Shown: piece by piece, positions 56,675-64,000 of the stretch
How positions within the stretch are numbered: the first letter of the stretch is position 1
Layout: every line of letters starts with the position of its first letter
From: Alexandriicola marinus
GTDB lineage: Bacteria > Pseudomonadota > Alphaproteobacteria > Rhodobacterales > Rhodobacteraceae
DNA: 64,000 nt
Assembly (NCBI RefSeq): GCF_004000435.1
Contig: NZ_RBVZ01000001.1
Coordinates: 1,033,328-1,097,327, forward strand
Reading direction: 5' to 3'
Made by a program: the position numbers and the translations under genes
The notes under the pieces: model-generated
Database searches by the model: none
The model's input: only the letters and a program-made list of their open reading frames with translations
Told to the model about the DNA's origin: nothing

Positions 56675-56764
56675 GGAGAGGTGCCGGAGTGGTCGAACGG
56701 GGCGGTCTCGAAAACCGTTGTGGGCGCAAGTCCACCCAGGGTTCGAATCCCTGTCTCTCCGCCA
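56675..56764 (+). tRNA. tRNA-Ser (anticodon CGA)
   Basis: A complete tRNA-Ser: seven-base acceptor stem (GGAGAGG with TCTCTCC, one G-U), D arm, anticodon loop CTCGAAA with anticodon CGA, a long variable arm typical of serine tRNA, T arm with TTCGAAT, discriminator G and an encoded CCA end. It reads UCG codons. It marks the left border of an AT-rich accessory region, and tRNA genes are common integration sites. Confidence 0.97.
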
Positions 56765-59390: not shown

Positions 59391-60035
59391 TCAAATGCTG
59401 ATTCGACGCCGGAACCCAACCAGGACAAAGACCCCCAAGGCTCCAAGCAAAATGGGCAGGCTTGCAGGCAACGGCACCACTCCCGTGTCGTAACTGGGCG
59501 TCACAACCTCGCGAACGTAGACCTGACCGGCAGCGGTAACATCAAAAAGCGGATTACCTGATAGTTCGTTGGCGATGAGGTCCATCAAAGCCGAACTGTA
59601 GGTTTTCCCGATTACTTCAACTACAAGACCACCTACGACATACAGGTAGTCGGCATCCCGATCCATGGTCAACGCGCTCAGATCGACGGACCAGAAGTCG
59701 TCGCCCGAGAAGGGATTGTTGACAAAACTGCTAAGGCTGATCGTTGAGACTGCTTCCGACGCCGATGCGAACGCGTTGGCATTCCAAGAAGCCCCCAATG
59801 TCCAGCCTCCGCCGGATGTTGTCATATCCGCATAGGTCCGGAATGCGGCGTTGCCGTTCGGCCCATCAGGGTCCAACCAGTAAAATCCGTCTCCGACTGA
59901 AAAACCGTCCGCTAGTATCTGCTTTGCCGACGTCCCGGCTGTCCCCGAAGAAAAGCCATTCATCGTCGCAGCATGAACCGACCCCGCCCAAGAAAAGATA
60001 ACTAGTACAATTCCAGAAAGTATTCGTCCTGTCAT
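59391..60035 (-). CDS. VPLPA-CTERM surface protein with fibrinogen-like motif
   Basis: Secreted protein of 214 residues. A signal peptide (residues 1-22, ending SVHA) precedes a region with DPDGPNGNAAFRTYADMTT and GGGWTLG, a motif found at the start of fibrinogen-C-terminal-like domains in bacterial surface proteins. The C-terminus has VPLPASLPILLGALGV, a hydrophobic helix and the basic end GFRRRISI, the sorting signal of the VPLPA-CTERM family. That signal is recognised by an exosortase-type transpeptidase, which is not encoded here. A GGGGGG ribosome site lies upstream of the ATG at 60035. Confidence 0.85.
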   Translation of the reverse strand: MTGRILSGIVLVIFSWAGSVHAATMNGFSSGTAGTSAKQILADGFSVGDGFYWLDPDGPNGNAAFRTYADMTTSGGGWTLGASWNANAFASASEAVSTISLSSFVNNPFSGDDFWSVDLSALTMDRDADYLYVVGGLVVEVIGKTYSSALMDLIANELSGNPLFDVTAAGQVYVREVVTPSYDTGVVPLPASLPILLGALGVFVLVGFRRRISI

Positions 60036-60577: not shown

Positions 60578-61366
60578 CTAGTCTCCGAAAATCTTGGTCC
60601 AGCTTTCAAGGACGGAACCCAGCGCGCTGTCCGGAATGGCAGCCAGCAGCCGCGAACGGCCATCGCGCGCGACGACGGCCTGAATCCCCGGGCCAATCGC
60701 AAGGGCGGCACTGGACGGACCCGCGCGTTCAAGACGTTCTTGACTGCCGCAACGTCCGGGCGAATGCGCAAGCGCCGCATCAATTGCCCCTAGACGGCTG
60801 CGGATCTCGTCTGGTCCGTGCGCATAGGTTTCCCCGCTGTCCCCGAGGTGACACCGCCAGCCAGAGACACGCGGCGTGATCCGTTCCAGAAATTGCGTGA
60901 TCCGCGCCTCGTGTCCGAATGATTTGCCCGCGCGCATCAGCGCCTCGGCCGAACAGGACGCCCCGCCCAGACCGGCATTCGACGCGCGCCCCAAAGTATT
61001 GAGCGTGATCCCCCCCGAGCGTTCGGCAATCCGCCGGATGCTTGCGGCGTGCCGCAGGGCCGCCGCCTCGGCGTCGCCCTCTTCGATGGTGTCACCGGCG
61101 GGCGGCGTGATGCCGATGAGACGCCGGTTTGCCGCGACCAGCACCCCGGCGGCACTGCCCTTGGTAGTCACCTCGATCCGGCGCGGCAGGACGACTTCGT
61201 CAATCTCCTCGGCGACCAGACGCAGCGCCTGATCGGGGCCATCGGCCTTGCACCCCATGGTGTCTTGCAATGCCTCCCGATCCAGCCCGAGCCGGATCAG
61301 CGCCGCGCGCAAACGATCCGCCGCGGGGTTTGGCGTGTTCTGCTGAATTCGGACCGCGTCTGCCAT
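60578..61366 (-). CDS. Conserved-looking protein of unknown function, last gene of the dynamin operon
   Basis: Soluble protein of 262 residues with no domain I can name. The N-terminal 45 residues are helical (ADRLRAALIRLGLDREALQD). A middle region is EVVLPRRIEVTTKGSAAGV. The C-terminal quarter (SSAALAIGPGIQAVVARDG and RLLAAIPDSALGSVL) resembles one half of a roadblock/longin-like fold, but this is weak. Its start overlaps the stop of the roadblock-like gene by one base (TAATG). It ends the operon. No signal peptide or membrane segment is visible. Confidence 0.75.
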   Translation of the reverse strand: MADAVRIQQNTPNPAADRLRAALIRLGLDREALQDTMGCKADGPDQALRLVAEEIDEVVLPRRIEVTTKGSAAGVLVAANRRLIGITPPAGDTIEEGDAEAAALRHAASIRRIAERSGGITLNTLGRASNAGLGGASCSAEALMRAGKSFGHEARITQFLERITPRVSGWRCHLGDSGETYAHGPDEIRSRLGAIDAALAHSPGRCGSQERLERAGPSSAALAIGPGIQAVVARDGRSRLLAAIPDSALGSVLESWTKIFGD

Positions 61367-61743
61367 TACCCGGCCACCGCCACGCTTTCAAAGATGCCAT
61401 GTGCATGATCGACCACTTGCGGCACGCATTCCAGTCCGGCGCACAGACAACACACGACGTCTATGGGATTATCGGGCGAGCGGACAAAAATGCGCAGATC
61501 ACGCGGTGTCGCCACGATCAGCCGATCACGCGATCCGTCGTCGCATTCCACATCCTCGCAAACGAGATCCGACGCCTCGAAGTGGCAGGCGGCGTGTTTC
61601 AGGATCTCTTCGAGAAAGTCCTGCTTGAAGGGGCGCGATGCGCTGCTGCGCAGGGCCATGCCCGTTCGCAGATCCCCGAATGACGCCAGCGAACAGCCGG
61701 GGATATCGCTTCGCATCCGGTCGAGGCGTTCGGACAGGCTCAT
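61366..61743 (-). CDS. Roadblock/LC7-like small protein
   Basis: Protein of 125 residues with a possible roadblock/LC7 (MglB-like) fold: helix, then GCSLASFGDLRTGMALR, a long helix (DFLEEILKHAACHFE), and strands DRLIVATPRDLRIFVRS and DVVCCLC. Roadblock proteins bind and regulate small GTPases, which fits the dynamin-like genes upstream. The assignment comes from strand/helix pattern only. Its start at 61743 overlaps the stop of an 18-codon ORF as ATGA, and its stop overlaps the next start as TAATG. Confidence 0.6.
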   Translation of the reverse strand: MSLSERLDRMRSDIPGCSLASFGDLRTGMALRSSASRPFKQDFLEEILKHAACHFEASDLVCEDVECDDGSRDRLIVATPRDLRIFVRSPDNPIDVVCCLCAGLECVPQVVDHAHGIFESVAVAG

Positions 61744-61796
61744 GCGGCGCGCCTTCTGGCAATACGCGCGACCTGCGGGGATTGCGGGACCATCAT
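61740..61796 (-). CDS. 18-residue coupling ORF
   Basis: ATG at 61796 overlaps the dynamin gene stop as ATGA, and its TGA at 61740 overlaps the roadblock-like gene start, also as ATGA. The encoded peptide is MMVPQSPQVARIARRRAA. Both overlaps exactly bridge a gap of 49 bases. It could be a translational bridge and not a functional peptide. Confidence 0.4.
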   Translation of the reverse strand: MMVPQSPQVARIARRRAA

Positions 61797-62767
61797 GACG
61801 TTTCCCTGCGTTCGGGGCTCAGGGTGAAATCCGGCCGCTCCACCCGGCCCCGCATCCGGGTATGGACCCGCACACGTTTCGGCAACACGCGGCTTTGCAT
61901 GTCGGTGACCCCGCTGACGGCGATGGCCGGCGTTTCTGCCGGGGCCTCCGCGGGCGGTGCCTCGGGCGCAACGATCTCCTCGGCGGCCGGTTCCGCTGCA
62001 GCTAGCTGATTTTCCGTTTCTGTCACCTGGGCCTCTTCGGGGGCGACGGCCAGCCGGGGTGACGGGTGCAGCAGCAGATCGACCAGATGCCCGATGAACT
62101 CGGCCGCGCCGCTGTCGCGCCATTTGGCGACGTCGTCGCCGGCCTCGATCGCCTTGAGAATCGACAAGGGATAAACCGCCTTGAACACTCCCTCGGTTTC
62201 CTTGCGGACCCGTTTCAGAACCCGTTCCACATCCCGATCCGAGCGCAGCTTGTCGATCTGTGTCACCAGCAGGATGTTGTCGCCATTGGTGCGGGGCTGC
62301 ATATCCTGCCAAGCGGCCGCTTCGGTCTGACGCCAGGCCTGAGTGGCCTGCGTGCACCAGACGACGCTATCGATCTCGTCCAGCACGGATTGCCAGGTAT
62401 CGGCGGCCATACTGGGATCAGAGATGCCGGGCATGTCGATCAGATCGCAGATCTCGAGCGTTTCGGACATCGATCGAAGCCGGATCAGCCGCGCATCCTC
62501 GATCCGGACCGAGGCGAGGTCTTCGATTGCCAGCGGGGTTTCGCTTCCGTCGTGGCCGACCATTGTGGCGCTTTGTTCGCCGTGGCTCACCCAGACCGGT
62601 GGAAACCGCGTGGCCGTCACCCGGACAGGCAACGGCGCATCGCCCAGAAGCAGCTTGGACAAGGTGCTCTTGCCCGAGCTGAATTCTCCCATGAATGCCA
62701 GTCGCGGCTTGCCCCGGGCATTCTGATCCATCGGATCGGCGTTGTGCACACTCATCTCCTTGTTCAT
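61793..62767 (-). CDS. Dynamin-family GTPase (second of a pair)
   Basis: Protein of 324 residues with a dynamin-type G domain: G1 GEFSSGKST near residues 27-35, a G2 threonine likely in VRVTATRFPP, G3 DMPGISD, and an atypical G4 TQIDKL where the usual form is [TN]KxD. A long Ala/Pro/Glu-rich tail (about residues 245-300) and a basic end follow. It lacks the long helical stalk of full dynamins, so it may work with the longer partner. Its start at 62767 overlaps the stop of the first dynamin gene (ATGA). Fusion or fission of membranes is the family role; the process here is unknown. Confidence 0.87.
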   Translation of the reverse strand: MNKEMSVHNADPMDQNARGKPRLAFMGEFSSGKSTLSKLLLGDAPLPVRVTATRFPPVWVSHGEQSATMVGHDGSETPLAIEDLASVRIEDARLIRLRSMSETLEICDLIDMPGISDPSMAADTWQSVLDEIDSVVWCTQATQAWRQTEAAAWQDMQPRTNGDNILLVTQIDKLRSDRDVERVLKRVRKETEGVFKAVYPLSILKAIEAGDDVAKWRDSGAAEFIGHLVDLLLHPSPRLAVAPEEAQVTETENQLAAAEPAAEEIVAPEAPPAEAPAETPAIAVSGVTDMQSRVLPKRVRVHTRMRGRVERPDFTLSPERRETS

Positions 62768-64000
62768 GCCGCGTACCGACGCAGCGTCACCAGCGTCTCT
62801 TCAAGCGCCTGATCGGGCCCGTCCGGTCCTTTTTCGGCGAACAGGCTTTCGACCCGGCCCGCCCTTTGCGCAGATCCGTTCATCAGATCGAGCAGGATAC
62901 CGCGCTGCTCATCAAGGAAGGCGTGCAGCTCCTCGGTCACGTCGCGCCGGATGTCCTGGATCTGAACCTCTTTCATCTGGGTCATGAAATCTTCGGTCTC
63001 GTCGCGAATGAGAGCCTTGAACTTCTTTGCAAACGCCCGGTATCCAACCGTTTTCCGCCACCAGTTCGACCACCAGCTGTCGTTGAAATCGAGGGCGATC
63101 GCCTGACCGAGGACCACCGGCGACGGGATCGGCGGCGCCGTGGGCACGGGGATCTGAATGCCTTCGACGGCCGGCCCGAAGACGCGGTAGAACAGATGCG
63201 CCGCATCCGAGACCGCCACCTCATAGCGCATTAGCGCATCCTTCCGGACCTTGTTGCCCATCGCCGAATAGGCCGATCTCAGCAGAAGCCTGAGGCCTGC
63301 CGGATCGTATTCCCAGATCTCGTCCGGACCTTGGGTTTCCAGATGCTGAAGCAGCGAATGGGTGGCCCGTTCCACGAAATTCTCGTGTACGCGGTCGGCG
63401 CGGTTTCGGTAGTCTTCGAATATCGCGTCGAGCGACGTCTCGAGCCCGGCGAGATTGGCCTCGGCGATCTGTTCGAATGTGCGGCGGGCCTCGTCCATCG
63501 TCGCGTTCTGATCGAATTGGTCGCCGCCGATCCGGACGGTCTGGACGGCCTGCCGGGAGGTGGCGATCGACAGCGCGGACGAGGCGATCTTCTTGAGAAC
63601 GGGGTCACCCTGCCCCGCGACGATCAGTGACGACAGCGCCTCCATCAAGGCGGGGAGGCCCGACATCTCCCATGTATGGGACGAGGCCGGCTGGTCGATG
63701 AAAGCCGCCTCCATCCGCGCCTTGGTCAGGCTGATCAGGGAAGTGGCACTGGCTTCGGCCATGTCATCCAAGTCGCCGCTCAGCGCCTTGCCGGCCCAAT
63801 AGGCACTGCCAAAGATGATCCGGGCATTCTGCGGCCCGCCATGGGTCTTGAGCGTCGCGCGGATGCTATCCTCGATCTCACGCATCTGTTCGGCAGGTTC
63901 CGCCAACTCGTCGATCCGGTTGACGAAAATCACGACCTCGCGCGACCGCAGGTTCGAGATCATGCGGATCAACGCCATGTCGACCGAGGTCAGCGCCTGC
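62764..64000 (-). CDS. Dynamin-like GTPase, long form (5' end outside window)
   Basis: The coding frame is open to the right edge, so the start and the P-loop lie outside. The visible 412 residues begin near the end of the G domain (QALTSVDMALIRMIS, G4 motif FVNRID) and continue as a long mainly helical region. Near residue 300 of the visible part lies DSWWSNWWRKTVGY, a tryptophan-rich stretch that may be the membrane-binding paddle. The last 90 residues are coiled-coil-like. Length and order suit bacterial dynamin-like proteins with a stalk. The following dynamin gene overlaps its stop. Paired dynamins of this type are known in other bacteria. Confidence 0.82.
   Translation of the reverse strand, partial: QALTSVDMALIRMISNLRSREVVIFVNRIDELAEPAEQMREIEDSIRATLKTHGGPQNARIIFGSAYWAGKALSGDLDDMAEASATSLISLTKARMEAAFIDQPASSHTWEMSGLPALMEALSSLIVAGQGDPVLKKIASSALSIATSRQAVQTVRIGGDQFDQNATMDEARRTFEQIAEANLAGLETSLDAIFEDYRNRADRVHENFVERATHSLLQHLETQGPDEIWEYDPAGLRLLLRSAYSAMGNKVRKDALMRYEVAVSDAAHLFYRVFGPAVEGIQIPVPTAPPIPSPVVLGQAIALDFNDSWWSNWWRKTVGYRAFAKKFKALIRDETEDFMTQMKEVQIQDIRRDVTEELHAFLDEQRGILLDLMNGSAQRAGRVESLFAEKGPDGPDQALEETLVTLRRYAA

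Follow-up and report, generated by a model that had tools for sequence, protein, structure and literature searches.

One end of a 64,000-nucleotide (nt) stretch of Alexandriicola marinus DNA (contig NZ_RBVZ01000001.1; hereafter the window) carries part of an eight-gene cassette whose order is kept in most of the related loci. The edge of the window cuts this operon inside the gene of its larger dynamin, and the continuation of the contig, which was read beyond the edge with an identical overlap, supplies the rest. On the full contig the order of transcription is a Ser/Thr kinase, an FHA-domain protein, a PP2C phosphatase, a degenerate GTPase (g1), a dynamin-like GTPase (DYN), a second, short dynamin-like GTPase (g2), a protein of predicted roadblock/LC7 fold (rb) and a further small protein (unk) (Table 1). 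We tentatively interpret this cassette as a dynamin machine gated by phosphorylation and regulated by a roadblock protein, the equivalent, built on a dynamin, of the actinobacterial conservon, and consider that the chances of this interpretation fall a little short of even. A first-pass annotation, made from the letters of the window, had described a cassette of two GTPases and two small proteins. Those genes are present as four minus-strand open reading frames (ORFs) overlapping as it had stated, and their coordinates held on re-reading, but the system is larger, with the kinase, FHA and PP2C genes and a third, degenerate GTPase upstream. The rightward extension that it had proposed recovered the 5' end of DYN (to 64830) and these four further genes.

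The order of the eight genes is kept beyond chance expectation. DYN was found in 72 of 196 sampled genomes of the order Rhodobacterales (34 of 88 genera), from which 40 neighbourhoods, all in the window's own family, were chosen for genus breadth. A separate scan of species genomes with the DYN alignment confirmed 495 relatives, and the best 80 of these form a second set of loci (roseobacters, for instance of the genera Roseovarius, Leisingera, Shimia and Tritonibacter, together with uncultured Rhodobacteraceae, a bin of the Paracoccaceae and another whose title says no more than Proteobacteria). According to profiles of the eight families, the exact order kinase-FHA-PP2C-g1-DYN-g2-rb-unk is present in 31 of the 40 and 65 of the 80 loci, so that the genes do stay together in related genomes, as the first-pass annotation had required of a single system. 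Two further loci of the 80 hold all eight families with g1 split in two pieces; among the remaining 13, 12 stop at or near a contig end that falls inside the cassette or right next to it, and L132 alone has no detected rb. The nine incomplete loci among the 40 consist of one cut by a contig end (L058) and eight variants or partial forms. Both sets overlap, and together with the window they contain 111 distinct DYN sequences, 89 of them with all eight families. The outer neighbours vary among loci while the order of the cassette stays fixed.

The rb profile matches 66 of the 196 genomes, all of them DYN carriers (66 of 72), with no match in the 124 genomes that lack DYN (Fisher value 1e-45, genome relatedness being left uncorrected), and 70 of the 73 rb places lie at most 4 kb from a DYN match. 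Since rb is confined to DYN genomes and nearly always lies close to DYN, it belongs to the dynamin. Three rb-family matches are located apart from any DYN match (contigs C4 and C6 of G057 and contig C14 of G072) and are possibly rb copies in another context. In the class, the DYN profile (E ≤ 1e-20, at most three candidates scored per genome) matched only two of 385 genomes, both from the window's family and one of them the window's own genome. In the phylum, the g2 profile (E ≤ 1e-5, at most five candidates scored per genome) matched 10 of 398 genomes: eight from the window's family, G888, which belongs to another family of the class and holds a DYN-GTPase pair, and, weakly, G709 (E 1.2e-6). 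The dynamin is also carried by 18 plasmid records (12 Leisingera, 5 Ruegeria and 1 Rhodobacter), all predicted to be non-mobilizable. Three plasmid loci were read, one with the full cassette (L161), one from Ruegeria rearranged as DYN-g2-rb-unk-DYN2-GTPase-kinase-FHA-PP2C (L162) and one with pairs only (L163). The family alignments used 34 of 35 rows for rb (A1), 21 of 26 in A2, 30 of 41 in A3, 24 of 33 in A4 and 30 of 40 in A5; A6 is made up of the window and 46 rb proteins of the 80 loci that passed filters for length, start codon and duplicates, and A7 of the window and 64 of 65 returned proteins (L139 left out).

DYN and g2 belong to the dynamin superfamily by their Dynamin_N G domain. The model (PF00350) scores above its cut-off of 27 in both, and the G1 (P-loop), G3 (DxPG) and G4 ((N/T)xxD) motifs are kept in 30 of 30 aligned relatives of each. 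The two dynamin-like GTPases of the first-pass annotation are thus confirmed by profile search, and the features that it had singled out in them are real: the Trp-rich segment of DYN has three tryptophans (W586, W587 and W591) that are invariant in 30 aligned relatives, the atypical G4 of g2 (TQID) is a family-wide T-x-x-D (30/30), and the low-complexity tail of g2 is present and ends in a conserved basic motif, PRRV...RP (P296, R298 and R311 in at least 90% of 30 sequences). This motif may be a docking or membrane-contact peptide. At 324 residues, g2 looks too short for a full dynamin trunk, and the Trp-rich segment of DYN is suggestive of a membrane-binding tip. Among PDB sequences, DYN best matches 2j68 and 5owv, both of them dynamin-like proteins of bacteria. 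The same genome has two more Dynamin_N places, where only 41 model positions are matched, and clustering of ORFs found no cassette family around them.

No Pfam family was accepted for g1, whose homology to g2 extends over 210 columns (E 4.5e-27). Its P-loop is kept in 18 of 24 sequences and G3 at the aligned place in none of the 24, DxPG occurring elsewhere in two of them, far from that place. The GTPases and dynamins of 19 chosen cassette loci and six pair loci were placed in one tree (midpoint rooting, FastTree supports). There, g1 forms a group (support 0.98) with the GTPase encoded after DYN2 in Ruegeria, and DYN sits with the first-pair dynamins. Two dynamin-GTPase pairs are found in the stretches read of L163, L072, L178 and L179, and one pair in L176, from a genome outside the family; the second-pair dynamins of the former four group with the Ruegeria DYN2. 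The main form of the cassette may have lost DYN2 and kept its partner g1 as a decayed regulatory GTPase, a scenario that we prefer and that is supported only in part.

The 125-residue rb is predicted to have a roadblock/LC7 fold. Its AlphaFold model, based on the 47-member family alignment, has a mean predicted local distance difference test (pLDDT) of 90.5 and the element order a-bb-a-bbb-a plus a short extra helix. VIA-align superposes 117 of its residues on MglB at 2.2 Å with Z 15.1, the identity to the MglB chains being 9-13%, and the Z values are 12-14 for LAMTOR and Rag complex chains against 14-15 for MglB; a Streptomyces roadblock protein is matched too, by both Foldseek and VIA-align. 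The best 50 of 86 Foldseek matches at E ≤ 0.001 are titled roadblock, MglB, MP1-p14 or Ragulator/LAMTOR, with a few exceptions. These are two short outer-arm dynein chains and one Rag/mTORC1 chain, which presumably also hold roadblock domains, and 5x6u and 5x6v (titled human heteropentameric and heteroheptameric complex), which we take to be Ragulator. Sequence models see nothing: the window protein falls into no Pfam, NCBIfam or PADLOC family and has no meaningful sequence match in the PDB, Robl_LC7 (PF03259) matches one of the 47 family members at E 0.3, and the Pfam roadblock model has zero matches in the window's own genome. Since Robl_LC7 does not recognise the family, rb is classified by its fold and outside that sequence family. 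The roadblock-like character that the first-pass annotation had attributed to this protein is therefore borne out by the predicted fold.

Like rb, the 262-residue unk has neither a Pfam, NCBIfam or PADLOC family nor a PDB relative by sequence with a meaningful E-value. In its AlphaFold model (65 sequences; pLDDT 88.5, predicted template modelling score 0.71), VIA-align pairs residues 151-262 with chains of the roadblock and longin types (Z 5.9-7.5), the top rows being chains of Rag-type complexes (Z 7.0-7.5), whereas the N-terminal half has no assignment. The first Foldseek rows are Fuzzy-Inturned and Mon1-Ccz1, which we take to be tri-longin exchange factors for Rab GTPases (E near 1e-3, template modelling score near 0.2-0.3), followed by phytochromes. 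The modelled C-terminal half of unk may be a second roadblock/longin-like domain. This resemblance makes a two-part regulator formed by rb and unk conceivable, comparable to the CvnB/CvnC homologs that act on CvnD homologs (excerpts of PMC13343842).

The Pkinase, FHA and PP2C_2 domains of the three upstream proteins all score above their Pfam cut-offs, and their core motifs are kept: HRDxxPDN in 34/34 and DFG in 33/34 aligned kinases, DGxGGH in 35/35 phosphatases and the FHA core GR...ISRxxH in 32/32 sequences.

Taken as one signalling and membrane-remodelling system of the Rhodobacterales, the cassette could work as follows. The kinase and PP2C, whose domains and motifs are those just described, would set a phospho-threonine mark on presumed targets, the FHA protein would read it, and this phospho-switch would control the GTPase core formed by DYN and g2. 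rb, perhaps paired with unk, would set the nucleotide state or the placement of g2/DYN, a putative activity modelled on MglB, a GTPase-activating protein (GAP), and on the CvnB/CvnC homologs. A roadblock protein acts as a GAP in MglA/MglB (excerpts of PMC9481161), roadblock GAPs are also described in excerpts of PMC4316618, and the same holds for MfpD/MfpB, where MfpC is likely a guanine nucleotide exchange factor (GEF; excerpts of PMC13343842). g1 would be a non-cycling pseudo-GTPase, perhaps the relic of a lost second dynamin pair, and would serve as a regulatory or heterodimer partner of g2. The output would be the regulated assembly of DYN on the inner membrane, with the Trp-rich segment as its likely lipid contact. 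Bacterial dynamin-like proteins usually occur as pairs, and paired dynamins tether membranes (excerpts of PMC6104087). The interpretation of the cassette as a roadblock-regulated dynamin machine is favored by the fixed gene order with differing flanks, the co-occurrence of rb and DYN, the fold of rb, the core motifs, the grouping of g1 with the partner of DYN2 and the Ruegeria plasmid, where these parts recur in rearranged order.

Nevertheless, several points weigh against it. The gap between g1 and DYN, 144 nt at the window's own locus and 118 nt in the median of 35 pairs, suggests two transcription units. One locus (L054) has kinase-FHA-PP2C-DYN-g2 with g1, rb and unk undetected, and in the stretch read the pairs of L163, L072, L178 and L179 are accompanied neither by rb and unk nor by the kinase, FHA and PP2C genes, so the regulators seem dispensable for some forms; the genome of L178 carries a full cassette elsewhere (L069). 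In the tree, the second-pair GTPases of these four loci fall on the g2 side (0.92). Typical FHA domains have an S-x-x-H spacing, which occurs anywhere in only 5/32 of the FHA proteins, their core spacing being S-x-x-x-H in 32/32. The second roadblock domain is a weak prediction: the VIA-align list of unk also has TRAPP (Z 7.0) and phytochrome (Z 6.8) chains (6.4-7.0 overall), values of Z ≤ 7.5 fall in a range that possibly reflects a common arrangement only, and a comparison of the rb and unk profiles gave no match. Membrane binding by DYN is presumed. The described bacterial partners of roadblock proteins are Ras-like GTPases, not dynamin/Era types, in the excerpts of PMC9481161, PMC4316618 and PMC13343842, and the matches listed from the open-licence literature include neither experimental work on the cassette nor a precedent for a roadblock protein acting on a dynamin-class GTPase.

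A bolder form of this interpretation is a hitherto undescribed class of bacterial machine resembling those of membrane trafficking, in which rb and the longin/roadblock-like unk, as GAP and GEF, would govern an active/dead GTPase pair partnering the dynamin, with the eukaryotic-like kinase, the phosphatase and the FHA protein as a switch; it is possible, if somewhat doubtful. Other scenarios may also explain the cassette. A Ragulator-like scaffold appears unlikely. Here the roadblock proteins would hold g1:g2 at the membrane and inform the kinase arm of the state of nutrients or stress, with the dynamin as sensor or anchor instead of a machine for fission or fusion. It would fit the homology of g1 and g2, one intact and the other degenerate, as well as the LAMTOR/Rag matches of rb, nearly as good as those to MglB, and the Rag-type chains that head the alignments of unk. 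Yet a C-terminal roadblock domain is absent from both GTPases by Pfam, and among the five aligned families conservation is highest in DYN (mean column identity 52% against 27-39% for the other four, over differing row sets), which fits a catalytic role.

A role in defence against phages or envelope damage is slightly less likely still. The kinase would sense infection or membrane stress, and the dynamin would seal or restructure the membrane or delay lysis, like DynA of Bacillus. A dynamin has been linked to phage resistance (excerpts of PMC8844932). In PADLOC, DYN matches the models of LeoA (E 2.7e-10) and LeoBC (E 7.6e-8). Matches of the kinase are to PD-T4-6 kinases and mad6, but any dynamin or Ser/Thr kinase could presumably produce hits of these kinds. 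At E 0.01, no PADLOC model matches FHA, PP2C, g1, rb or unk, and g2 is matched more weakly than DYN; no whole-cassette match to LeoABC or another listed defence system was obtained, only dynamin- and kinase-type matches. The patchy presence in the sampled genomes and the plasmid records would suit a defence system, yet there are 0 matches in 50,697 phage records. The flanks also show little sign of defence islands: two mad3 and two mad8 matches in 117 flank ORFs, against none in 116 control ORFs, speak for a defence role, but they are few for such an island and come from two families only, and what the flanks hold most often are regulators, transporters and metabolic enzymes (25 of 111 families listed). 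The flank scan covered 117 of 130 ORFs from 19 of 20 loci, under a residue limit and a length filter that left 126 of 140 control ORFs, of which 116 were used. The control stretches were chosen arbitrarily within these genomes, and genes were called simply as longest ORFs in flanks and controls alike. Finally, although the PpkA-Fha-PppA triad is a hallmark of type VI secretion system control and VipB is found in 10 of 20 chosen cassette genomes, a threonine phosphorylation pathway of that system with extra GTPases is hardly credible, being largely refuted by the cassettes in genomes without a VipB match (the window's own and 10 of 20 other cassette genomes), and the cassette proteins match no secretion component except a sub-threshold FHA-type model of the type III secretion system.

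Comparison with known systems situates the roadblock-regulated dynamin machine proposed here. Bacterial dynamin-like pairs (C. jejuni DLP1/DLP2, Nostoc BDLP and Streptomyces DynA/DynB) share with it the Dynamin_N domain, side-by-side GTPase genes and a similar length (688 residues in DYN, 695 and 732 in PDB chains). The cassette differs by its short partner GTPase with a low-complexity tail and by the addition of rb, unk, the kinase, FHA, PP2C and the degenerate third GTPase; the words 'roadblock' and 'kinase' have no occurrence in the main text of the dynamin-pair paper PMC6104087. Conservons (AGPS; CvnA-D; mycobacterial Mfp) are also operons that combine a kinase and a GTPase with a roadblock protein and another small protein (excerpts of PMC13343842 and PMC4316618). 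However, they have their own histidine kinase (CvnA) and the Ras-like CvnD, whereas the cassette has a Ser/Thr kinase, FHA, PP2C, dynamin-class GTPases and an rb that escapes the Pfam roadblock model; 'dynamin' does not occur in the main texts of the conservon papers PMC4316618 and PMC13343842. With its dynamin/Era-type GTPases and Ser/Thr kinase, the cassette is not a conservon, and at most works like one. The MglA/MglB polarity module also has a roadblock-fold protein, close to rb in fold and distant in sequence, beside a GTPase, but MglA is Ras-like, and a dynamin and a Ser/Thr kinase arm lie outside the module as described in excerpts of PMC9481161 and PMC4316618. In Ragulator/Rag and the tri-longin RabGEFs (Mon1-Ccz1 and Fuzzy-Inturned), roadblock/longin folds regulate or scaffold GTPases as well; these are eukaryotic, and the matches of unk lie below trust level, a resemblance only. 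Dynamin pairs are known, as are operons with roadblock, kinase and GTPase genes, and what appears to be new is their union. The combination of dynamin, roadblock and kinase/phosphatase is not described in the open-licence literature among the matches listed, a scope outside which fall subscription papers and most preprints, where it may have been described.

To our knowledge, the way in which bacterial dynamins are switched on is largely open. They have been called poorly investigated (excerpts of PMC10104851). The conserved cassette puts a dynamin beside three kinds of candidate regulator, i.e. roadblock-fold proteins, a pseudo-GTPase and a phospho-switch, and, since it occurs in many culturable marine bacteria of the Roseobacter group, sometimes on plasmids, it makes dynamin control directly testable. 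rb itself represents a roadblock-fold family that escapes Pfam's model of this domain. Should the dynamin indeed be under roadblock control, the cassette could prove a class of its own, and such control would extend beyond Ras-class to dynamin-class GTPases, in hosts perhaps without any sequence-recognisable roadblock protein. This reach beyond Ras-like GTPases would bear on the origin of the eukaryotic Rag/Ragulator- and RabGEF-type control.

Table 1 Features of the cassette, from unk to the kinase. Positions beyond 64000 are in extended numbering (position in locus L005 + 60000)
Feature	Position	Strand	Basis
unk, 262 residues, C-terminal half tentatively roadblock/longin-like	60578-61366	-	AlphaFold model, weak fold matches
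rb, predicted roadblock/LC7-fold protein, 125 residues	61366-61743	-	AlphaFold model and structural matches
18-codon ORF	61740-61796	-	Directly visible in the sequence
g2 (GTPase 2), short dynamin/Era-type GTPase, 324 residues, low-complexity linker and basic C-terminal motif	61793-62767	-	Dynamin_N, 51.4 bits in DYN and 37.2 bits here
DYN, dynamin-like GTPase, 688 residues	62764-64000 in the window (C-terminal part); full gene 62764-64830	-	Dynamin_N, 51.4 bits
g1 (GTPase 1), degenerate P-loop GTPase, 432 residues	64975-66273	-	Homology to g2
PP2C phosphatase, 305 residues	66293-67210	-	PP2C_2, 52.8 bits
FHA-domain protein, 404 residues	67194-68408	-	FHA, 26.8 bits
Ser/Thr kinase, 454 residues	68405-69769 (TTG start uncertain)	-	Pkinase, 118 bits

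The first-pass annotation had described the genes as joined without gaps, the 18-codon ORF included, and had seen in this a sign of a stoichiometric complex. The overlaps within the window are as described: DYN and g2 share 4 nt (62764-62767), the 18-codon ORF overlaps each of its neighbours, g2 and rb, via ATGA, and the rb and unk genes share 1 nt at 61366. The continuity ends upstream at the g1-DYN gap. Conservation of the 18-codon ORF is lacking: just 8/34 loci have a coupled mini-ORF of any kind, and the peptides look unrelated, which rules it out as a conserved peptide; it is probably a translational-coupling spacer rather than a conserved part. Gene overlaps are by themselves no proof of a stoichiometric complex.

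The gap upstream of DYN contains a conserved DNA word near CCAAnTnTnACCACAAT (64921-64938, i.e. 4921-4938 of L005), which recurs at corresponding places in about a dozen relatives; in the window's genome, a second, weaker copy stands ahead of the kinase gene. This word is a possible promoter or operator. The idea of an operator shared with the kinase arm was dropped, as a shuffled background of 5 per 400 kb allows as many sites. A promoter scan gave one site, on the opposite strand.

Beside the cassette, seven of the 40 neighbourhoods (L036, L037, L038, L039, L043, L046 and L065) have response regulator and histidine kinase families, accompanied by a LuxI-type autoinducer synthase in six and a cytochrome P450 in four, on varying sides; they are absent at the window's own locus. 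These neighbours are BLAST-clustered families, with Pfam names checked for L037 and one L065 protein only. Elsewhere in the window, a minus-strand gene at 59391-60035 codes for a secreted-looking protein of 214 residues, whose VPLPA-type C-terminal segment is followed by a hydrophobic stretch and arginines in a sorting-signal-like arrangement. A tRNA-Ser(CGA) gene is located at 56675-56764 on the plus strand.

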